NCBI RefSeq assembly: GCF_026004075.1
Contig: NZ_BPIK01000002.1
Location: 434,001-498,000 of the forward strand
DNA length: 64,000 nucleotides
Direction: 5' to 3'
Source of the DNA: Meiothermus sp.
GTDB taxonomy: Bacteria > Deinococcota > Deinococci > Deinococcales > Thermaceae
The notes under the pieces: generated by a model
What the model was told of the DNA's origin: nothing
Seen by the model: the letters and a program-made list of their open reading frames with translations, nothing else
Databases searched by the model: none
Made by a program: the position numbers and the translations under genes
In this document: in pieces, positions 35,674-43,950 of the stretch
Layout: every line of letters starts with the position of its first letter
Position numbering within the stretch: position 1 is the first letter of the stretch

Positions 35674-35844
35674 AAGAACCATGCTAAAAACCCGGATGGC
35701 GCCTGTCCATGCAGCGCTTACAATGCCTTAATGAAGGCTTTAGTTATGGCCGACCAAAGTAGTCCAAATCACACTGGGGGGGGTGTGTTGTTTTGCTATA
35801 CCAGTAGTGCCAGCGCTGGTATCGAAACCCCCAAAGGAGGAACC
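35666..35844 (+). promoter_or_regulatory. Repeated upstream block 1 with poly-G tract and dyad
   Basis: This stretch recurs before two other precursor genes (38752 and 40950 onward). It holds a run of eight G (35776-35783) flanked by CACAC and GTGTG, a -10-like TATACC (35797), and a dyad ATACCAG (35798-35804) / CTGGTAT (35816-35822) overlapping the palindrome CCAGCGCTGG (35810-35819). An AAAGGAGG ribosome-binding site ends 4 nt before the ATG. The -35 position falls in or near the G run. Confidence 0.65.
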
Positions 35845-36285
35845 ATGCAGCGAATCGTTCAATTCCTAACCATACTCACCCTGCTGATCCTTACCCCGGC
35901 CCTGGCCTAGGGCAGCCAATCCAGCTTGAAGCCAACCAACCCGGCCCTGGTGCTGCCGGTGGGGCAGGAGTTGAGCGATGAAGAGCTGGCGGAAGTGGAG
36001 GGACGGTGGCTTTGGGCCGCTATAGGTGCAGCAATGGGAGCTCACTCTGCCGTAAGTGCTTGTGAATGCAGCGGTTGGCGAGCAGTAGGTGCAGCCGTAA
36101 GCGGTGCGGCGCTAGGCGTGGTGGGTGGAGGCAAAGGTGAGCTTGTGGAGATAGCGTTTAATGCGGCGAGGCAGCTTGGCTCCAAGGTGGGCCAGGCAGC
36201 GATGGCAGGTGTGGGTGTTGGAACTGCATGGAGCACCGAAGTGGGTGTGCAAGCGGCAGGTAGGGCTTGGAGTTCCAATAGATAG
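35845..36285 (+). pseudogene. Sec/double-glycine bacteriocin-like precursor A, interrupted by TAG at codon 22
   Basis: The frame encodes MQRIVQFLTILTLLILTPALA, a Sec signal peptide, then TAG where two intact homologues and the fourth copy have CAG (Gln). Beyond it the frame stays open to 36285: SSLKPTNPALVLPVGQ, ELSDEELAEVEGR (double-glycine-like leader end) and a Gly/Ala-rich core (WLWAAIGAAMGAHSAV, later GGGKGELVEIAFNAARQLG) ending in Arg. The core has two Cys in SACECSG. It is either a recent nonsense allele or depends on read-through or internal restart (GTG/TTG codons near 35926). It is paired with the membrane protein at 36327. Confidence 0.75.
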
Positions 36286-36300
36286 TTTTGTGAGAGAAAC

Positions 36301-36324
36301 GGTTGCCCCCAAACGGGGGCAACC
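36301..36324 (+). promoter_or_regulatory. Intercistronic hairpin before the partner gene of precursor A
   Basis: GGTTGCCCCC and GGGGGCAACC form a perfect 10-bp stem around AAAC. It ends 2 nt before ATG 36327 and contains the only G-rich ribosome-binding candidate of that gene, so it may hold back its translation or attenuate read-through. No T tract follows. Confidence 0.6.
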
Positions 36325-36326
36325 AG

Positions 36327-36827
36327 ATGGAGCTGGAGGATCTGATTCGGATGCTAAAAAAGCTCGGCAGACTATTTCCAGTATTTCACATCATCGGGTT
36401 CCTCCTGATAACTAGTTGGACATCTACCGCATTCAACCCATATGTGGAGGACAAAACTTTTGATTGGACGCTTGGGGAGGTGCTGATTAAAGTCAGTACT
36501 CTTTTGGTTGGCTACTATTTCGCTCACATTCTCACCTTTATCAACTGTGGCTCGTTCAAGGGATATCCTGAGTACCGGGCGTTGTTCGGGCCGAGTCCGG
36601 CACCATCTCAAAGGCGGGGGCTGATGGCTGGGGTGTTACTGGCGATTTTGGTATGGGTCGCCGCAATCTTGCTATACGTTTACGGAAGAAGCTTGGTGAG
36701 AGGTGATTTAGACATAGACATAATACTAACAAACGTAATAGCGACATCATTGGTGGTTTTACTAGGCCTATTTCTGGATTGGCGATTCAACCAGTTTGAG
36801 GCCTCACGACAGTTGATGCGGATATGA
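36327..36827 (+). CDS. Four-helix membrane protein, candidate immunity protein of A
   Basis: 166 residues from ATG 36327. Hydrophobic segments lie at about 17-36, 48-72, 98-119 and 129-151, with short basic loops; no known family motif was recognised. It directly follows precursor A and is AT-richer than the chromosomal background. Pairing of one small precursor with one small unrelated membrane protein is the layout of class II bacteriocins and their immunity proteins; immunity is inference. Confidence 0.6.
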   Translation: MELEDLIRMLKKLGRLFPVFHIIGFLLITSWTSTAFNPYVEDKTFDWTLGEVLIKVSTLLVGYYFAHILTFINCGSFKGYPEYRALFGPSPAPSQRRGLMAGVLLAILVWVAAILLYVYGRSLVRGDLDIDIILTNVIATSLVVLLGLFLDWRFNQFEASRQLMRI

Positions 36828-36831
36828 CGCC

Positions 36832-37059
36832 ATGCTAGCGATAGATGCTGCTCGGAGTTGTAGAGAAGGCTGCTCGGCAAGGGAGGTTGTAGTAAAGGTC
36901 GCGACGGGCGCTGTGTCGGGAGCTTTCTTTGCTGGAAAAGCCGAAGTAATAGAAAAAGCTATGGCCGGAGGTGCGAAAGCCGTAGCTCACATCATTAATG
37001 GTGTAGGCTATGGCGCTGTTCAAGAGGGCATTGGCGCTTACAAGGAACCCCGAAGATGA
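36832..37059 (+). CDS. Leaderless precursor-like core peptide B
   Basis: 75 residues. From about residue 22 it has the same Gly/Ala-rich helical style as the other cores (VATGAVSGAFFAGKAEVIEK, AGGAKAVAHIINGVGYGAV) and ends with basic residues (YKEPRR), as the other cores do. It lacks the signal peptide and the ELSDxEL leader, so it is a truncated cassette or a silent donor. It starts 5 bp after the previous gene and overlaps the next by ATGA, the coupling expected of a precursor/immunity pair. Confidence 0.5.
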   Translation: MLAIDAARSCREGCSAREVVVKVATGAVSGAFFAGKAEVIEKAMAGGAKAVAHIINGVGYGAVQEGIGAYKEPRR

Positions 37060-37601
37060 ATAAAACCCAAACTCATGGGAGCAAGCGCGCAAAATCACCT
37101 GGCGGGATTCACCGACTCTGGCACGATCCCGCCAACCAATGGTTGTTCAAGACCTTGCTGTTTATATTTGGTGTGGGTTTTGTTGTGACCAAAGAAATTA
37201 CTGCGGGTCTAACAGGGTTGTTTTCAAAGGTATATTTTGCCCACGCGATTGCATTCGCGTTTGAGGCGAACGACGGATTAGCGAAAAGATACTGCAACGC
37301 TTTTCACGTATCGCGAACACCAAGTAAAAAGAGCTCCTTTGTGATGTTATCATCGATTCTGGCTCTATTCATTGCAGATGTTGTGGTTGGCTGGCTGGTG
37401 TTAGTGTTTCTAAGAAACACGCCCCTGACATTGCAGGCTTTTTCTTGGCATATTTCCATTATGGTTGTGCTGATTTTTATTGCTCTTTTGGTAGATGGTC
37501 TCAAGTGCCATTTGAGGGGTGCTCGATATCTGTTTGGCCAACGCATACTTACATCTGACCAAGTTACAGAGGAACCATGCAGCGAGTCATTCAAGCCCTA
37601 A
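37056..37601 (+). CDS. Membrane protein, candidate immunity protein of B
   Basis: 181 residues, AT-rich coding. Hydrophobic segments at about 30-50, 55-72, 94-114 and 130-147; N-terminus basic (KTQTHGSKRAKSPGG). No family recognised and no visible similarity to the protein at 36327. The last 25 nt overlap the start of precursor C, so the C leader appears to have been joined onto the 3' end of this gene. Confidence 0.55.
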   Translation: MNKTQTHGSKRAKSPGGIHRLWHDPANQWLFKTLLFIFGVGFVVTKEITAGLTGLFSKVYFAHAIAFAFEANDGLAKRYCNAFHVSRTPSKKSSFVMLSSILALFIADVVVGWLVLVFLRNTPLTLQAFSWHISIMVVLIFIALLVDGLKCHLRGARYLFGQRILTSDQVTEEPCSESFKP

Positions 37602-38008
37602 CCGTACTCACCCTGCTGGCCCTTGCCCCGGCCCTGGCTCAGGGCAGCCAATCCAGCTTGAAGCCAACCAACCCGGCCCTGGTGCTGCCGGTGGGGCAGG
37701 AGCTGAGTGATGGGGAGCTGGCTTCCATTGAGGGTGGAAATCCAGCCCTTGTAGTTCTTGGTATCGTGGTTGCGCGCGCAGCGGCTAGAGCTGCTGTTGA
37801 GGTTGCAAAGTCGGCTTTTTATGGTGCTGTGGGTGGGGTGGCACAAGAAGTAGGTGCTGCGGTTAGATCTGGTCAAACCAGTATGGGTCAGCTAGCAAGC
37901 GCTGCAGCGGCTGGTGCTGCTGGGGGTGCAGTGACAACTTTGACTAGAAATCCAGCGGCCCAGGCTGTGGCCGGCGGTTTTGTGGCAGGCTATGTGCAGG
38001 GACGCTAA
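37577..38008 (+). CDS. Intact Sec/double-glycine bacteriocin-like precursor C
   Basis: 143 residues. Residues 1-21 are a Sec signal peptide (MQRVIQALTVLTLLALAPALA, presumably cut after ALA), 22-54 a propeptide with PALVLPVGQ and ELSDGELASIEGG, whose end is a textbook double-glycine leader (ELS..EL..I.GG). The core (55-143) is Ala/Gly/Val-rich with repeated small-xxx-small spacing (GAVGGVAQEVGAAV, AAAAGAAGGAVTTL, AVAGGFVAGYVQGR) and ends in Arg. It lacks the repeated upstream block and must rely on the transcript of the preceding genes. The best candidate of the set for an active product. Confidence 0.8.
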   Translation: MQRVIQALTVLTLLALAPALAQGSQSSLKPTNPALVLPVGQELSDGELASIEGGNPALVVLGIVVARAAARAAVEVAKSAFYGAVGGVAQEVGAAVRSGQTSMGQLASAAAAGAAGGAVTTLTRNPAAQAVAGGFVAGYVQGR

Positions 38009-38056
38009 GGATGCAAGTGCAGGAGATGGTCTTGGCTTAGTTTCCGATGTGTAGCT

Positions 38057-38084
38057 GTGTCCAGGGGGTAACTCCCCTGGATAC
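38057..38084 (+). promoter_or_regulatory. Intercistronic hairpin between precursor C and its partner
   Basis: GTGTCCAGGGG and CCCCTGGATAC form an 11-bp stem (one G-U pair) with loop GTAACT, 21 nt before the next start. Like the hairpin after precursor A it may set the ratio of precursor to partner. No T tract. Confidence 0.6.
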
Positions 38085-38105
38085 GAATGGGGGAAGGTAG
38101 AGAAC

Positions 38106-38690
38106 TTGGATGCCGACTTTCTGAACAACTTGCTGGCTGTTGTTCTAACAGGAATTTATGTTTGGGTACTAATAGACATAATAGACAGCCTACTCTTCGG
38201 TAAGAGCCTTTTGGTAGATAGGGTTTTTTCGGATCTCCGGATTTCGATTACATCCAGAGACCTAGTACGGCGACAGGTTTTGATAGTTTCGATTCTCGCT
38301 TTGATAAATAGCGTAATCTCCTATGCCTTATTCCTCCAGCAGGGTACGCTTAATTCTCCTTCCATTCGGATACTCTGGCTGTTTAGTCTGCTTATTGTCG
38401 CTGTTGATTTTATCTCGCTCAAAAAAGAAATTGCAAACACAAACTTTTCAAAACCCGTGATTGCTGGGGCGGGTTCTGGAGCAAAGCGAGAATCTCGGGT
38501 TGGCCGCAAGAGGTTTTTCGCGTTTTGGATTCCGAAGCTGAGCCTGAATTTTGCCATTGCCCTGGCGTTGGTTTGGCTGATTGATCTGGTCAACGACAAC
38601 CGAGATAGCATCGGAGGAATGCTAATTCAGGCCCTTCCCTTGGCCTTGCTACTGCTGGTAATTGGGTTTTTCCATAAGCGAGAGAGATGA
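38106..38690 (+). CDS. Membrane protein, candidate immunity protein of C
   Basis: 194 residues starting at TTG 38106 with GGAAGG upstream (no in-frame ATG is nearby). Hydrophobic segments at about 8-28, 60-79, 88-105, 148-166 and 171-188; a basic cytoplasmic-like loop (SGAKRESRVGRKR) lies in the middle. No family recognised. Low G+C for this genome. Pairs with precursor C. Confidence 0.6.
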   Translation: MDADFLNNLLAVVLTGIYVWVLIDIIDSLLFGKSLLVDRVFSDLRISITSRDLVRRQVLIVSILALINSVISYALFLQQGTLNSPSIRILWLFSLLIVAVDFISLKKEIANTNFSKPVIAGAGSGAKRESRVGRKRFFAFWIPKLSLNFAIALALVWLIDLVNDNRDSIGGMLIQALPLALLLLVIGFFHKRER

Positions 38691-38717
38691 GTTGAGTTCT
38701 GGTTGCAGGGGCTTGCT

Positions 38718-38904
38718 TAGGTTTGTGCGGGGGAGGGATGGCAACAGGTGAACAGTCATAAGAATCGTGCTAAAAACCCGGAGTGCCTTAATGAAGGCTT
38801 TAGTTTTGGCCGACCAAAGTAGTCCAAATCACGCTGGGTGGGGGGGGTTGTTTTGCTATACCAGTAGTGCCAGCGCTGGTATCGAAACCCCAAAAGGAGG
38901 AACC
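38718..38904 (+). promoter_or_regulatory. Repeated upstream block 2
   Basis: Same block as at 35666, lacking about 25 bp around the GGCGCCTGTCCATGC part. It shares an extra left stretch (TAGGTTTGTGCGGGGGAGGG) only with the block at 40916. The G tract is GGGT followed by eight G (38840-38847); the TATACC, the ATACCAG/CTGGTAT dyad and AAAGGAGG are kept. Confidence 0.65.
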
Positions 38905-39351
38905 ATGCAGCGAGTTGTTCAAGTCTTAACCATACTCACCCTGCTGGCCCTTGTCCCGGCCCTGGCCCAGAGTAGCCAAACCAGCTTCAAGCCAACCAGC
39001 CCGGCCCTGGTGTTGCCGGTGGGGCAGGAGTTGAGCGATGGGGAGCTGGCGGAGGTGGAGGGAAAAATATTCTGGTTTGCGGTGGCAGGAGCTGTAGCGG
39101 GTGCAACTTACGAAATTGCTCGACAAGCGTTCAGCTTTGAGCAGCCGGACTGGAGGAAAATAGGGGTGTCGGCTCTCGAGGGTGCAGCGATGGGCGCTTT
39201 TCCGGCTGTAGCTGCCTATGGTAGAGCAGCAACAGTCATCAAAGGTGCTGCTGAGGGTGTAAATGCTACAGCACTTGCTGCAAGCGCAGGTACAGTGGTT
39301 GGAGCCGCTAGAGGAGCCACACAAAACCCTAATACGAAACCGAACCGATAG
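38905..39351 (+). CDS. Intact Sec/double-glycine bacteriocin-like precursor D
   Basis: 148 residues. Signal peptide MQRVVQVLTILTLLALVPALA, then PALVLPVGQ and ELSDGELAEVEGK, where the second Gly is Lys. The core begins IFWFAVAGAVAGATYEIARQ, continues with GVSALEGAAMGAFPAVAAYG and AALAASAGTVVGAARGATQ-like segments and ends TKPNR. The longer open frame (46 codons upstream) runs through the regulatory block and is not real; ATG 38905 has AGGAGG four bases before it. Full regulatory block upstream. Confidence 0.8.
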   Translation: MQRVVQVLTILTLLALVPALAQSSQTSFKPTSPALVLPVGQELSDGELAEVEGKIFWFAVAGAVAGATYEIARQAFSFEQPDWRKIGVSALEGAAMGAFPAVAAYGRAATVIKGAAEGVNATALAASAGTVVGAARGATQNPNTKPNR

Positions 39352-39399
39352 AGTCGGCCTTGCTTAGTGTAACTTTTTCACGTACTGGGTATACTTGAG

Positions 39400-39786
39400 A
39401 TGCCACCAGTCAACATGATCAGAAAGCTTCTAATTTCCTCGGCCGTAGTTCTGTACACTATGGCTGGGGGCATTCTACTATGCCTAGTTTACTACCTGCG
39501 AGGTGCAGATATATGGAGTGAGTTGGCCGCTCGAATGCCACTGGCGTTTGTTCTGGGGGTTGTGTTCGGATTTATTTTCTACCATAGGTCAGATGCAATA
39601 TTCAAAACTAACGCCAAGAATAGTTTTTTTCTTATGTTCGACGCCATTTCGGCTCTCCTGCTAGCGGCGCCTATAGTGATTTATATTTGGGGTATTGGCA
39701 TTGTTTGGATGATCGTTTTTCCTCTTTTGCTGGTAGTGTTGCTAATCATCTTCTTTCAGTGGATCCGAAATTCGGCCTATGAGTAA
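39400..39786 (+). CDS. Membrane protein, candidate immunity protein of D (first)
   Basis: 128 residues, four hydrophobic segments (about 8-34, 46-63, 79-98, 100-121). No recognised family. It follows precursor D by 48 bp and overlaps the next small membrane gene by 8 nt. Confidence 0.55.
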   Translation: MPPVNMIRKLLISSAVVLYTMAGGILLCLVYYLRGADIWSELAARMPLAFVLGVVFGFIFYHRSDAIFKTNAKNSFFLMFDAISALLLAAPIVIYIWGIGIVWMIVFPLLLVVLLIIFFQWIRNSAYE

Positions 39787-40051
39787 CACCATAGGAATCA
39801 GCACGTTACGACCCGAGGAAGGTATGCCTCCAAAGAAAGTCCTGAACGAAAGCACTTTTTTGTGGAAGGTATACACGATCTTCGTAGCCCTAGCTATTTC
39901 AGGTGTTCAGATGTACACCTTCCTAATTCTCAATTGGAATTTTTTTGCCTCAGTCGGTTTATCTTTGTTTTTGCTAGCGATTGTTCTTTCTTTCACACAT
40001 GTCGACTGGGCACGGATTCGATATGTATTGCGTAGAAAACAGCGTAAGTAA
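39779..40051 (+). CDS. Two-helix membrane protein downstream of D
   Basis: 90 residues with hydrophobic segments at about 31-52 and 55-71 and a strongly basic C-terminus (RIRYVLRRKQRK). It overlaps the previous gene by 8 nt in another frame. It could be a second immunity subunit or the partner of a lost precursor. Family unknown. Confidence 0.5.
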   Translation: MSNTIGISTLRPEEGMPPKKVLNESTFLWKVYTIFVALAISGVQMYTFLILNWNFFASVGLSLFLLAIVLSFTHVDWARIRYVLRRKQRK

Positions 40052-40121
40052 GACGAAATGCACAAGATTCTAACGGTGCAACCAACCGATAACCACATAC
40101 ATCTCCTTGGGGTAAGCTACT

Positions 40122-40169
40122 TTGAAGTGTAGACTCCTCCTTCTGTCGTACGCATTTCTTGCCAGCTAA
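40122..40169 (+). pseudogene. 15-codon vestige of a membrane gene like that at 41969
   Basis: TTG AAG TGT ... reads LKCRLLLLSYAFLAS and then TAA. It is nearly the same, including about 10 bp upstream, as the start of the gene at 41969 (LKYRLLLLSYTFLAS). The similarity stops exactly where core E begins, marking a recombination joint. Confidence 0.7.
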
Positions 40170-40425
40170 TCTTCTATTGGGTGCGGCTTTTGGCGCGGGT
40201 CAGGAGGTTTATCATCAGCTCACAACTCGTGGAAGAATTGAGGACTGGGGAGCAGTAGCTTTGAGCACGGCTCTCGGTGCGGCTGGTAATGCTGCTCTTG
40301 GTGGGATCGGAGGTTCGGTCTTGGAGGCTATTGCCTCGGCAAGGGTTGGGGCATACTTCGTAGCGGGGGGTATGGCAGGGACGATTAGAGGACACTATGA
40401 CAACGCTCAAAAGGGTAGGCGGTAG
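40159..40425 (+). CDS. Leaderless precursor-like core peptide E
   Basis: 88 residues in a frame opened by TTG 40159 at the recombination joint. The Gly/Ala-rich body ([52 protein letters not shown]) and basic end (NAQKGRR) match the core style of C and D, but no signal peptide or ELSDxEL leader precedes it. Probably a decayed or donor cassette; its own translation is doubtful. Overlaps the next gene by 29 nt. Confidence 0.45.
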   Translation: MPANLLLGAAFGAGQEVYHQLTTRGRIEDWGAVALSTALGAAGNAALGGIGGSVLEAIASARVGAYFVAGGMAGTIRGHYDNAQKGRR

Positions 40426-40621
40426 GATTCTTTTCATCGTTTTGAAGATGATTGGAAGAATCACTTTGTGTTTTGTACTCATGGTAGTCTTACAGGCGTT
40501 GTCCATGTGGTTGTTTGGTTTTCCTGAAACATGGGAGGAGATCCTCTCCCGCGCTGTGTGGATGTCTGTTCCACTTTGGCTCTTATTTGATCTTCCCAAA
40601 CTGCTTTCTAGAGCCTGCTAG
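40397..40621 (+). CDS. Small membrane protein, candidate immunity protein of E
   Basis: 74 residues with two hydrophobic helices (about 10-37 and 53-68). The [20 protein letters not shown] segment resembles LFGRPADWNTVVLMSV in the 56-residue protein at 42380, so these two partner proteins are related. The 3' end abuts a transposase remnant. Confidence 0.5.
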
Positions 40622-40864
40622 GAAGCCAAACGTAAACCATCCAGAACTTTTGGTAAAAGCAGAATGGAGAAAGCCAGCCAGTGAAAACCTTTGAGGGTCT
40701 CCGTAAGACGCTCGTAGTCACGGGCCAGACGGCGAAAACGAGTCATCCAGGCAAAGCTCCCAGTGCCCAGGCGGCAGCTTGCTGAGCCTCGGAGCCCGTA
40801 TAGCCCTGGCCCACTCCTCATCGCTTACGTCGGATGGGTAGGGTTTGCGGGTTGTCGGTTCCAT
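40618..40864 (-). pseudogene. Remnant of an IS5-family transposase gene
   Basis: From ATG 40864 the frame reads [19 protein letters not shown], a typical IS5 transposase N-terminus, then it is cut. In another frame the last part reads [20 protein letters not shown] and LLPKVLDGL, the typical C-terminus around the third catalytic residue. The middle is deleted. It is unrelated in detail to the full IS5 copy at 45677. It sits between module E and the block before precursor F. Confidence 0.8.
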
Positions 40865-40915
40865 GTCCTAAACATAACCTGCCTACCGCGTTTGGGATAG
40901 GTTCCTAGGAGCCTC

Positions 40916-41129
40916 TAGGTTTGTGCGGGGGAGGGATGACAACAGGTGAACAGTCATAAGAACCATGCTAAAAACCCGGATGGCGCCTGTCCATGCGGTG
41001 CTTACAATGCCTTAATGAAGGCTTTAGTTATGGCCGACCAAAGTAGTCCAAATCACACTGGGGGGGGGTGTGTTGTTTTGCTATACCAGTAGTGCCAGCG
41101 CTGGTATCGAAACCCCAAAAGGAGGAACC
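40916..41129 (+). promoter_or_regulatory. Repeated upstream block 3
   Basis: Same block as at 35666 and 38718, with nine G (41060-41068) where copy 1 has eight. TATACC, the ATACCAG/CTGGTAT dyad with CCAGCGCTGG, and AAAAGGAGG are conserved. Confidence 0.65.
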
Positions 41130-41564
41130 ATGCAGCGAGTTGTTCAAGTCCTAACCATACTCACCCTGCTGATCCTTACCCCGGCCCTGGCCCAGGGCAG
41201 CCAATCCAGCTTGAAGCCAACCAACCCGGCCCTGGTGCTGCCGGTGGGGTAGGAGCTGAGTGATGCAGAGTTGAGCCAGATAGAGGGGAAGTGGCTTTGG
41301 GCAATAGGGGGAGCTGTTGTCTCAATTGCGGCTGGTTATGCGGAAAAAGCTGCCGCGGGTGAAGCCTACACGTGGAAAGATGCTGCCAAAGATGCCATTG
41401 CTGGGGCGATGGGTACTGGAATTGGTAAAGCCGCTGGTATGGTTGGTAAAGCCGTCGAAAGGGCTATATACGTTCCTAGAGGCACTGGAAACGCGGTGGA
41501 ATTTGCAGGTGGTGCAGTGGGCACGGGTACTGTTAGGGGCGCACTAGATCGTCGTCGTCCATAA
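41130..41564 (+). pseudogene. Sec/double-glycine bacteriocin-like precursor F, interrupted by TAG at codon 41
   Basis: Signal peptide MQRVVQVLTILTLLILTPALA and PALVLPVG are followed by TAG where A, C and D have CAG, then the frame stays open: ELSDAELSQIEGK and core WLWAIGGAVVSIAAGYAEKA, AAKDAIAGAMGTGIGKAAGM, GGAVGTGTVRGALDRRRP. Only the 40-residue N-terminal piece would be made without read-through or restart. The open, conserved-style core argues that the nonsense change is recent or tolerated. Regulatory block intact. Confidence 0.75.
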
Positions 41565-41579
41565 GTTATAAGAAACCCT

Positions 41580-41936
41580 ATGAAGCGCCTCAGAGAAAGC
41601 CTTCTTTATTCATCGGGCATAGTTGTTGCCCGAGAGCTTATATCGCCTTCAAGTGACCTTGGAGTATTGGTTTTGCAATCGACGATTGTATTCGCCTTGG
41701 TATATTTCCTACACCCTTTCATTACCTATCTTGAGGAGAAATTTTTGCGAAAATTTGCGCGCGGAAGTCAAAGAAAATTTGCTGCCTATGAAGCGTCGTT
41801 TATTACGTTTGCGGTCGTAGTTCTTGTTTACCTGCTGTGGCCGGGCGTATTTTGGCTCGTTTTGCTTGTTGTGGGAGTTGCTAGTTACTTGCTGCTATAC
41901 TACCTTGTCCTCTGGCTAAACAGCACAACTGGCTGA
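41580..41936 (+). CDS. Membrane protein, candidate immunity protein of F
   Basis: 118 residues; hydrophobic segments at about 27-48, 73-90 and 92-112, and a basic loop (EEKFLRKFARGSQRKF). Starts 15 bp after core F. No recognised family. Confidence 0.55.
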   Translation: MKRLRESLLYSSGIVVARELISPSSDLGVLVLQSTIVFALVYFLHPFITYLEEKFLRKFARGSQRKFAAYEASFITFAVVVLVYLLWPGVFWLVLLVVGVASYLLLYYLVLWLNSTTG

Positions 41937-41968
41937 TAGCTTCACGCGCCTCCTGAGGTAACCTAACT

Positions 41969-42373
41969 TTGAAATATAGACTCCTCCTTCTGTCGTACAC
42001 ATTTCTTGCCAGTCTAGCCGGCCATGCGCTGGTTGGACTGGTTTTCGCATTGCTTGGCTCCCAGAGCTTTGAAAATGTTATTTATGGCAATCTGGACACT
42101 ATTTTGCTCGTTTCCACCGTTATCGCGCTTACCCTTACCCTCACGTCCCAGGGCCTAAACCCGACCGTCTTCTTTCCTGCATGGCGGAGAAATGTTTTTA
42201 GCTTACTGGTGGGTATTTTTGCTGGACTGGTGCTGGCGGTTTATTTTCGGGAGGAGTTTGGTCTTGCACGCATTCCCACATATTTAGCCGCTATGGTAGC
42301 GACTACTTTACTGGCCTTAGTGGCTTCCAAGGTCTTGCTTGGCCTTATTCGGGAAAGGGACATAGCTATCTGA
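41969..42373 (+). CDS. Four-helix membrane protein
   Basis: 134 residues starting at TTG 41969 with a nearby GAGG. Four hydrophobic segments (about 4-30, 43-60, 75-92, 103-124). Its first 15 codons are duplicated at 40122. Either a second partner of F or the partner of a lost precursor. Family unknown. Confidence 0.55.
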   Translation: MKYRLLLLSYTFLASLAGHALVGLVFALLGSQSFENVIYGNLDTILLVSTVIALTLTLTSQGLNPTVFFPAWRRNVFSLLVGIFAGLVLAVYFREEFGLARIPTYLAAMVATTLLALVASKVLLGLIRERDIAI

Positions 42374-42379
42374 AAAAAA

Positions 42380-42550
42380 ATGAGGGGATCTGTCGAAAGT
42401 CTTCGTAATTACATCAGGCTAACATTTGTAGGCTACGCCACCTCGAAAGTTTTGTTCGGGAGGCCCGCCGATTGGAACACTGTTGTGCTGATGTCTGTTT
42501 TGCATGGGCTCATTTTGTGGGTGGGGGAAACCTTCTTTGGGAAAAAGTAA
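42380..42550 (+). CDS. 56-residue small membrane protein
   Basis: Short frame: MRGSVESLRNYIRLTFVGYA, LFGRPADWNTVVLMSV, LHGLILWVGETFFGKK. One C-terminal hydrophobic helix. Its LFGxPxxW segment matches the E partner at 40397, supporting a real gene. It lies 6 bp after the previous stop and 3 bp before the C39 peptidase ATG, so it is co-transcribed. Confidence 0.55.
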   Translation: MRGSVESLRNYIRLTFVGYATSKVLFGRPADWNTVVLMSVLHGLILWVGETFFGKK

Positions 42551-42553
42551 AGC

Positions 42554-43183
42554 ATGAACCGTAACTTCCTGATACTTCTGTTTTTCCTGTTTTGTGTTCA
42601 TGGCCTGGCGCAGCCCACACCGTATCGGGTGTCACGATACCAGGGTGTGGTAGGGCAGACCGACTGGTTTACCTGTGGCCCGGCGGCGGTGGCTACGCTG
42701 CTGCGCCACTACTACGACCGGGCGGATGTGGACGAGGCCAGGGTGCTGGAACTGGCCTTGCAGGCTATGCAGAAAAACGAGGGGGAGGTGCGGCAGGTGG
42801 GCATCCACGTCCTGGCGCTGCGCCAGGCCATGCAGGCCTTAGGCATAGAGAGCCGGGGTTTTCGGCTGAGCCTAGAACAGCTCAGGGACTATTTCGAACG
42901 CGACGGTTTGCCGGTGATTTTGCACACCACCCAGCCCGAACCCCACTACGTGGTGGCGGTGGGGGTGGTGGAGGGGCAGGTGATGCTGGCTGACCCGAGC
43001 TGGGGTCGGCGGCTTCTTCCGTTGGAGGGGCTGCTGTCGGAAAAGGGCTTCAGCGGGGTGGTGCTGGTGCCGCTACCGGAAGAGCGGACGGCGGGGCTGG
43101 CTAAGGCTCGCCAGGCCCAGGCCCTGGAATGGGCGCAAGCCCGGTTGGGGCGTCTGCGCGGCCTGGTGCGGGGGCTGCCATGA
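42554..43183 (+). CDS. Exported C39-family (double-glycine-type) cysteine peptidase
   Basis: 209 residues. A Sec signal (FLILLFFLFCVHGLAQ) is followed by a C39 peptidase domain: catalytic Cys in QTDWFTCGPAAVATLLRHYY, catalytic His in EPHYVVAVGVV, and Asp in MLADPSWGRRLLPL. There is no ABC transporter portion, unlike LanT or ComA-type proteins, so it should act in the periplasm after Sec export. This resembles FapD-type C39 proteases of functional-amyloid systems. It should cut the ELSDxEL...EG leaders of the precursors upstream (inference). Overlaps the next gene as ATGA. Confidence 0.85.
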   Translation: MNRNFLILLFFLFCVHGLAQPTPYRVSRYQGVVGQTDWFTCGPAAVATLLRHYYDRADVDEARVLELALQAMQKNEGEVRQVGIHVLALRQAMQALGIESRGFRLSLEQLRDYFERDGLPVILHTTQPEPHYVVAVGVVEGQVMLADPSWGRRLLPLEGLLSEKGFSGVVLVPLPEERTAGLAKARQAQALEWAQARLGRLRGLVRGLP

Positions 43184-43950
43184 GAAGGCTCTGGTGTGTG
43201 CTGCTTGTTTTGGGCGGGCTGGCGCTGGCGCAATCCCAACCCATAGACTCGCTGGTGCGGCCCCAGGATAGGCCGGGCCAGCTTCGTTACAGCCTTGCCC
43301 TACGCTATGCCCCTCTGCAGACCTCTGGGCTAGGGGAGGAGGCCGAACGGGGGATTTTTGCATTTACGCGGGTGGAGCACGGATTGCTCTTGTCGGGCGC
43401 GCTCGAGCTTACCCTGGATGCGACCTGGAAGGCCTTTGTGGGCTTGTCACCAGAGCTGGTGTACTTTCAGACCGAGCGGCGTTTTGCCCAGGAGCTCGAG
43501 CGACTGGGCACGTATGAACTGGCCTTGGGCGGGCTGCTGGGTTTGGAAGCCCGGCTGCCGGAGTGGGGTGGGCTCGAGCCCCGCGTCGCAGTAGCGCTGG
43601 GCTATCCCTGGGCTTTGCGGTACAGCCTTTCCCTCAGCCTGATACGCGACCCCGTGGTCTTGGTGGCCCAGATAAGCCTCAACGATGCCCTGGATGAGCG
43701 GCCCACCCAGCTATCCTTCACGCTGGGAACGGGTTTCGTGGCTAATGAACGGATCAGCATGCAGCTCGCGGGCGAGCTGGGGCTGAGCCTCGAGCCCCTG
43801 ATTCTGCCAAGTGCTGGACTCCGCCTCAAAACCACCTACACCCTCGAGACCCGCTCCGAACAGCAGCTTGCCAGTCTGTTGAGCCTCCAGGCCACCGGGG
43901 AGCAACTGCGGCTCGGGTGGGGGCTCGAGCTGGGCGGTATCCTGCGATAA
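43180..43950 (+). CDS. Exported, probably outer-membrane beta-barrel protein
   Basis: 256 residues from ATG 43180, with a signal peptide (RLWCVLLVLGGLALAQ). The rest alternates short amphipathic strands (LRYSLALRYAPLQ, LELTLDATWKAFVGLSP, LRYSLSLSLIRDPVVLVAQI, LSFTLGTGFVANERISMQL, LRLGWGLELGGIL), as in outer-membrane barrels of the transporter/FapF-like kind. It does not end in Phe. Coupling to the C39 peptidase suggests a pore that releases the processed peptides; unproven. Confidence 0.65.
   Translation: MRRLWCVLLVLGGLALAQSQPIDSLVRPQDRPGQLRYSLALRYAPLQTSGLGEEAERGIFAFTRVEHGLLLSGALELTLDATWKAFVGLSPELVYFQTERRFAQELERLGTYELALGGLLGLEARLPEWGGLEPRVAVALGYPWALRYSLSLSLIRDPVVLVAQISLNDALDERPTQLSFTLGTGFVANERISMQLAGELGLSLEPLILPSAGLRLKTTYTLETRSEQQLASLLSLQATGEQLRLGWGLELGGILR

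Follow-up and report, generated by a model that had tools for sequence, protein, structure and literature searches.

Bipartite Sec and C39-type leaders encoded in a cassette array with a FapD-like peptidase and a FapF-like barrel in Meiothermus sp.

Results

Organization of the gene array

The window, which is the whole stretch of 64,000 nucleotides analysed here, belongs to a Meiothermus genome of 3.25 Mb (G000). An array on the plus strand occupied 35845 to 43950 of the window, with the cassettes first and the C39 peptidase and barrel genes last. Substrate A (35845-36285) encoded a signal peptide, the leader ELSDEELAEVEGR (ending in EGR) and a glycine-zipper cargo, with a TAG at codon 22 (35908-35910), and was followed by a membrane protein (36303-36827, with a TTG start as listed) that was taken as a candidate immunity protein from hydropathy only. 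Cargo B (36832-37059) was an orphan without leader and weakly similar to the other cargoes, and the candidate immunity membrane protein behind it in the ORF list (37056-37601) overlapped the start of gene C. Gene C (37577-38008, 143 aa) was followed by a candidate immunity protein with 5 predicted TM segments (38106-38690). Gene D (38905-39351, 148 aa) was read from the ATG at 38905, and a longer GTG start at 38767 was present in the ORF list. Two membrane proteins, again candidates for immunity, stood behind D (39400-39786 and 39779-40051, together 39400-40051), the second of which stands behind an F-type substrate in locus L045. Orphan cargo E (40159-40425), also without leader and weakly similar to the other cargoes, was paired with a candidate immunity membrane protein at 40397-40621. 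Substrate F (41130-41564) encoded a signal peptide, the leader ELSDAELSQIEGK (ending in EGK) and a cargo, carried a TAG at 41250-41252 and was followed by two candidate immunity membrane proteins (41580-41936 and 41969-42373, together 41580-42373). The array ended with an exported FapD-like C39 peptidase (42554-43183) and a FapF-like outer-membrane beta-barrel protein with a signal peptide (43180-43950), whose genes overlapped by 4 nt. This layout, with a constant delivery N-terminus, variable cargoes, partner genes and orphan cassettes, resembles that of polymorphic toxin arrays. No FapB/FapC amyloid repeat subunits and no FapA were found among the array ORFs, and no tRNA genes were found within the window.

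By sequence comparison, an identical 38-bp promoter-like element was located on the plus strand upstream of A (35794-35831), D (38854-38891) and F (41079-41116), and was absent before C. It contained a TATACC -10-like box and the palindrome CCAGCGCTGG, and may possibly be a shared promoter and operator.

Bipartite N-terminus of C and D

The original prediction had placed a Sec-type signal ending in PALA at the start of C and D with a double-glycine leader directly behind it, and both parts were present in the two ORF translations. In C, the signal peptide MQRVIQALTVLTLLALAPALA (37577-37639) was followed by a leader (37640-37738) ending in ELSDGELASIEGG and by a glycine-zipper cargo starting NPALVVLGIV (37739-38008, including the stop codon), which was homologous to the cargo of the L088 substrate (E 6e-15), where this type of cargo stands behind a different leader, with another signal peptide and another spacer. 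In D, the signal peptide MQRVVQVLTILTLLALVPALA (38905-38967) was followed by a leader (38968-39066) ending in ELSDGELAEVEGK, and comparison of the cargoes set the D cargo, starting IFWFAVAGAVAG, at 39067-39351, including the stop codon. The leaders were delimited from the ORF translations and the leader alignment, and the signal peptides were called from the n/h/c-region pattern and hydropathy only. With ^ marking the predicted signal peptidase site, the N-terminus reads MQRVIQALTVLTLLALAPALA^QGSQSSLKPTNPALVLPVGQ-ELSDGELASIEGG in C and MQRVVQVLTILTLLALVPALA^QSSQTSFKPTSPALVLPVGQ-ELSDGELAEVEGK in D, and both signal peptides end with a predicted cut at PALA^Q. A and F were built alike. The bipartite Sec plus C39-type N-terminus on C and D is thus confirmed as real.

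The DNA encoding signal peptide and leader was 80-95% identical among the four substrate copies, and the cargo DNA was 34-44% identical, about the level of unrelated sequence. Beyond A, C, D and F, no further good copies of the bipartite gene were found in the rest of the genome.

Leader rule and cut site

The alignment with leaders of relatives that had been suggested as a check was run on 33 leaders. Gly was found at -2 in 33/33, and among these leaders it was invariant at that position only, so the 'double-glycine' label of the original prediction is a misnomer; its statement that the last residue (-1) varies held throughout, with E, K, G, A, R, V, T or Q at this position and G, A or S in 11/33 leaders. 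Positions -12 and -7 were nearly always hydrophobic, in agreement with the hydrophobic -12, -7 and -4 of PCAT-type leaders, and -15 was Gly in the window copies. PCAT substrates are described with a GG, GA or GS end and hydrophobic residues at -4, -7, -12 and -15, and PCAT peptidases with a narrow active-site entrance (PMC7018657). The leader is more than a chance resemblance, since its conserved positions match the C39-binding ones of PCAT substrates (-12, -7, -4; PMC7018657). From the aligned sequences, the leader signature is Gly(-2), not GG. The C39 register is kept but -1 is free, which would mean a relaxed P1 requirement or a cut after Gly(-2). The leader lies behind a signal peptide and the C39 protein has no ABC domains, unlike the N-terminal cytoplasmic leaders served by ABC-linked C39 peptidases.

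C39 peptidase and FapF-like barrel

The C39 protein had a signal peptide and the conserved catalytic-type residues Q35, C41, H131 and D147. Its best NCBIfam match was FapD, followed by NHLP PCAT peptidases and FilB. Because the FapD match (4e-16, 59 bits) was far under the 330-bit equivalog cut-off, we regard the protein as FapD-like and not as FapD itself. Its AlphaFold model resembled PCAT1, ComA and LahT-type peptidase domains in a structure search; the PDB sequence search returned C39 domains only and the PHROGs search was uninformative. A stand-alone C39 protein with a Sec-type signal is a feature of the Fap/Nap type, in which FapD has been shown by experiment to be periplasmic (PMC5557850).

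The barrel had no Pfam match and its PDB sequence search was empty. Its AlphaFold model (pLDDT 83.5) gave FapF as all nine best PDB fold matches, with E down to 3e-10 and TMq about 0.6. The model lacked the periplasmic coiled coil of FapF, and its signal peptide was joined to the barrel by a short linker only. Judged from the modelled fold and the overlap with the peptidase gene, a FapF-like barrel adjoins the peptidase, also in line with a Fap/Nap-type locus.

Cassette turnover and stop codons

In the related genome G005, A, B and an F-like cassette were present and C and D were absent, and in G013 A was the only cassette. The C39 and barrel genes were under purifying selection (dN/dS 0.17 and 0.15, respectively). 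These cassette differences among G000, G005 and G013, together with the selection on the two genes, indicate that cassettes come and go while the machinery is kept.

A and F were full length except for one in-frame CAG to TAG change each, and the relatives and sister copies keep CAG. TAG stops were also noticed in the C39 genes of loci L046 and L084, apparently a CAG to TAG change in the G013 C39 gene and two TAGs in the G036 C39 gene. A is probably a recent pseudogene and F probably a pseudogene, and the TAG stops in A, F and the C39 genes of relatives most likely represent independent inactivation. Amber read-through of A and F was rejected as not the simplest explanation, given the single change in each gene, the relaxed dN/dS of A (0.72-1.07) and the intact A in L045 and L046, with the search for a suppressor tRNA covering the window.

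Relatives in Deinococcota and beyond

C39 genes of the same kind were found in 20 of the 111 Deinococcota genomes. A bipartite gene was present in 6/7 Meiothermus genomes with the C39 gene, with a remnant in the seventh, and in 0/11 of those without it. C39, barrel and bipartite substrate co-occurred in Meiothermus, and the loci were degenerate or split in G012, G004 and G006. Thermus and family f4 showed the recurring order of substrate, small membrane protein, C39 and barrel, and the system was also borne by Thermus and Deinococcus plasmids; the bipartite leader adjoined C39 and barrel genes in Meiothermus, Thermus, family f4 and Deinococcus plasmids. The substrate of Deinococcus NW-56 carried a C-terminal Ntox33 domain and was followed by a DUF4279 gene. 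This cross-genome comparison, which extends over two phyla with the Pseudomonadota loci below, supports the predicted two-stage order, in which Sec export would precede an exported C39 enzyme. Several genomes with the system had no PCAT-sized C39 match, that is no match to a peptidase-containing ABC transporter, so a cytoplasmic C39 is not required there.

On two Deinococcus plasmids (L096, L097), a divergent two-component system was located upstream of the C39-barrel module, and two related membrane proteins, a secreted protein of unknown function and an S41 peptidase downstream of it, suggesting regulation and accessory factors that are absent from Meiothermus. C39 and FapF-like barrel pairs were also seen on Bacillota MAG contigs (L057, L058), which may come from diderm lineages or from misbinning, and no bipartite-leader gene was found near these pairs.

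A second leader group was found in family f5 of Deinococcota, made of a signal peptide and PLGxGELxxVTAG or a variant ending in GG, with Gly at -1. In loci L119-L127 of this family, a stand-alone C39 gene lay near a signal-bearing protein in which PLGxGELxxVTAG was directly followed by xCxxC, and Cys at +2 occurred in eight loci. Locus L122 (4477-7460) contained, in this order, a stand-alone C39, a CN_hydrolase (Lnt-like) membrane protein and a signal-bearing PLGxGELxxVTAG protein. The N-acyltransferase-like neighbour hints that an unusual maturation of an N-terminal Cys may take place in f5.

Leader profile test in Pseudomonadota

A leader profile was built from 17 Deinococcota leaders and tested on held-out Pseudomonadota proteins, namely the signal-bearing neighbours of FapD/FilB-type C39 genes, using 5000 shuffles of each post-signal segment as the null. 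At p<0.05, 11/16 non-FapC neighbours and 0/5 FapC-like repeat proteins matched the profile; the p-values are indicative only, since the neighbours were hand-chosen from ORF lists with a crude signal-peptide rule. A profile score of at least 8 was reached by 32/222 signal-bearing ORFs near a C39 gene (in C39-linked loci, training sequences among them), and by 3/296 ORFs far from C39. All three were the window array's own copies, more than 3.5 kb off, and with these set aside the far background was 0.

The FapE-like proteins covered came from Aeromonas, Photobacterium, Vibrio, Acidithiobacillus and alphaproteobacterial loci. The clearest example from a fap operon was in Aeromonas, where the protein at the FapE position carried the leader ELADGELAHLRGR with p=0.0004; an NCBIfam match (2.3e-12), although under the equivalog cut-off, supports calling it FapE. 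FilA had the leader-like segment SMDDAALSAATGQ directly behind its signal peptide (p=0.011). On Acinetobacter plasmids (L110, L111), bipartite-leader proteins, with ELSNQEMKDTQGA and ELSRQEMKDTQGA, occurred with C39 genes, with no barrel annotated nearby. A C39-like gene of Neisseria gonorrhoeae (L104, 3372-4034) lay outside the nap island with no obvious barrel or peptide neighbour in the ORF list, and L104 was rejected as the nap island; L115 seems to carry NapP-like and NapF-like genes.

Discussion

We consider it likely that the array is a Fap/Nap-type locus, combining Sec export, periplasmic C39 trimming and FapF-like export of bacteriocin-like toxins. The precursor would be exported by Sec and lose its signal peptide in the periplasm, with the predicted cut after PALA. 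The exported FapD-like C39 enzyme would then bind the leader (Leu-12, Ser-11, Asp-10, Glu-8, Leu-7, hydrophobic -4 and Gly-2) and remove it by cleavage at or beside Gly(-2), and the glycine-zipper cargo would leave through the adjacent FapF-like barrel. The cargo may be toxic, with the membrane protein encoded behind each toxin protecting the producer. The processing and export part of this proposal is firmer than the toxin role, which is less certain because the Nap peptides of Neisseria do not kill competitors (PMC11798529). Several findings speak against the proposal. The -1 residues such as E, K, R and V are unexpected at the narrow PCAT active-site entrance (PMC7018657), 2/4 leader genes in the array bear stop codons, the barrel has no FapF coiled coil, and no leader gene was found for the C39 and barrel pairs of L057 and L058.

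Beyond this array, we lean slightly towards a broader reading in which the FapD-type C39 class reads a bipartite leader with one fixed Gly(-2), and in which the same route exports both polymorphic toxins and glycine-zipper bacteriocins in Deinococcota, an undescribed pathway with Sec acting first and C39 second. If FapD-type C39 peptidases recognise this leader as a class, FapE would therefore be a substrate of FapD. FapD depends on its catalytic Cys, its target was described as unclear, and FapE alone among the Fap proteins gave no N-terminal peptides by MS (PMC5557850). In a published E. coli fap secretion assay, FapC secretion is lost with FapD C38A.

The same processing and export could also serve a structural, amyloid-like or signalling cargo, with the membrane proteins as accessory and not immunity factors. 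The related machinery serves an amyloid in Pseudomonas (PMC5557850) and its Neisseria counterpart gives autolysis with no killing of competitors (PMC11798529), but the diversity of cassettes with a paired membrane gene, the orphan cargo pairs, the turnover between close genomes and the Ntox33/DUF4279 pair in a relative resemble toxin-immunity arrays and make a non-toxin cargo unlikely. It is rather improbable that the post-signal segment is an uncut tag for targeting the barrel and that the C39 peptidase acts elsewhere, for example on the barrel. Rouse et al. considered both cleavage of FapF by FapD and a FapF-targeting N-terminus of FapE (PMC5557850); however, the segment here is spaced like a C39-binding leader (-12, -7, -4, -2), this spacing recurs on unrelated cargoes beside C39 genes, and the present barrel has only a short N-terminal linker. 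Export as ordinary double-glycine peptides by the PCAT at C1:223097, with the hydrophobic N-terminus as part of the leader, is very improbable. The genome does encode this PCAT-like protein of 701 aa and the leader motif is PCAT-like too, but several of the genomes that carry the system gave no PCAT-sized C39 match, the N-terminus is laid out as a signal peptide (n/h/A-x-A) in all genera, and the neighbouring C39 and barrel genes are conserved together with the leader.

The proposed Sec, C39 and barrel route resembles the Fap system (FapA-F; PMC5557850, PMC6173800) in its exported FapD-like C39, FapF-like barrel and Sec-signal substrates, and the FapE protein of the Aeromonas fap operon bears the same type of leader. 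The array differs in that its cargoes are glycine-zipper peptides (Ntox33 in a relative) and not Asn/Gln-rich amyloid, and in that it is multi-cassette with partner membrane genes, has no FapA/B/C and has a barrel without coiled coil; moreover, no FapD leader rule is given in the literature. The Neisseria gonorrhoeae nap island (NapABC, NapP, NapF, NapI; PMC11798529) likewise unites, in one island, bacteriocin-like peptides that bear a cut site of the C39 type, the C39 peptidase NapP, the FapF-like channel NapF and a putative immunity protein. Its peptides are reported as GG, Sec or a signal peptide is unmentioned in PMC11798529, inner-membrane transit is tentatively assigned to a holin-like protein (PMC11798529), and the island is a single set whereas Meiothermus has an array with a shared leader. 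In the putative FilA/FilB pilus system of Acinetobacter, a stand-alone C39 (FilB) is next to FilA with its leader-like segment, but the FilA cargo is large and the leader match is weaker. PCAT/ABC double-glycine peptides (class II bacteriocins, microcins) share the C39 peptidase and hydrophobic -12, -7 and -4; their leaders are N-terminal and cytoplasmic and end in GG, GA or GS, whereas the Meiothermus leader stands behind a Sec signal, has a free -1 and has no linked ABC transporter. The constant N-terminus, variable cargo, partner gene and orphan cassettes, as well as Ntox33 in one relative, are shared with polymorphic toxins (CDI, Rhs and others) as described in PMC3482391; the array cargoes are short and mostly glycine-zipper, and the sections of that survey covered here give no C39/FapF-type route.

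No description of the bipartite leader or of a Deinococcota system of this type was found in the open-access literature searched. Neither the substrate of FapD nor the sequence it recognises was settled in PMC5557850 and PMC6173800 (2017-2018), and no later answer was found in the literature searched; the leader now gives a specific, testable cut region in FapE. It also provides a rule by which substrates of periplasmic C39 peptidases can be found from sequence. FapD and FapF genes lie together in five further phyla (PMC6173800). Our results suggest that export through the Fap-type barrel is a general route, open to toxins and not only to amyloid, that extends to thermophiles and plasmids.
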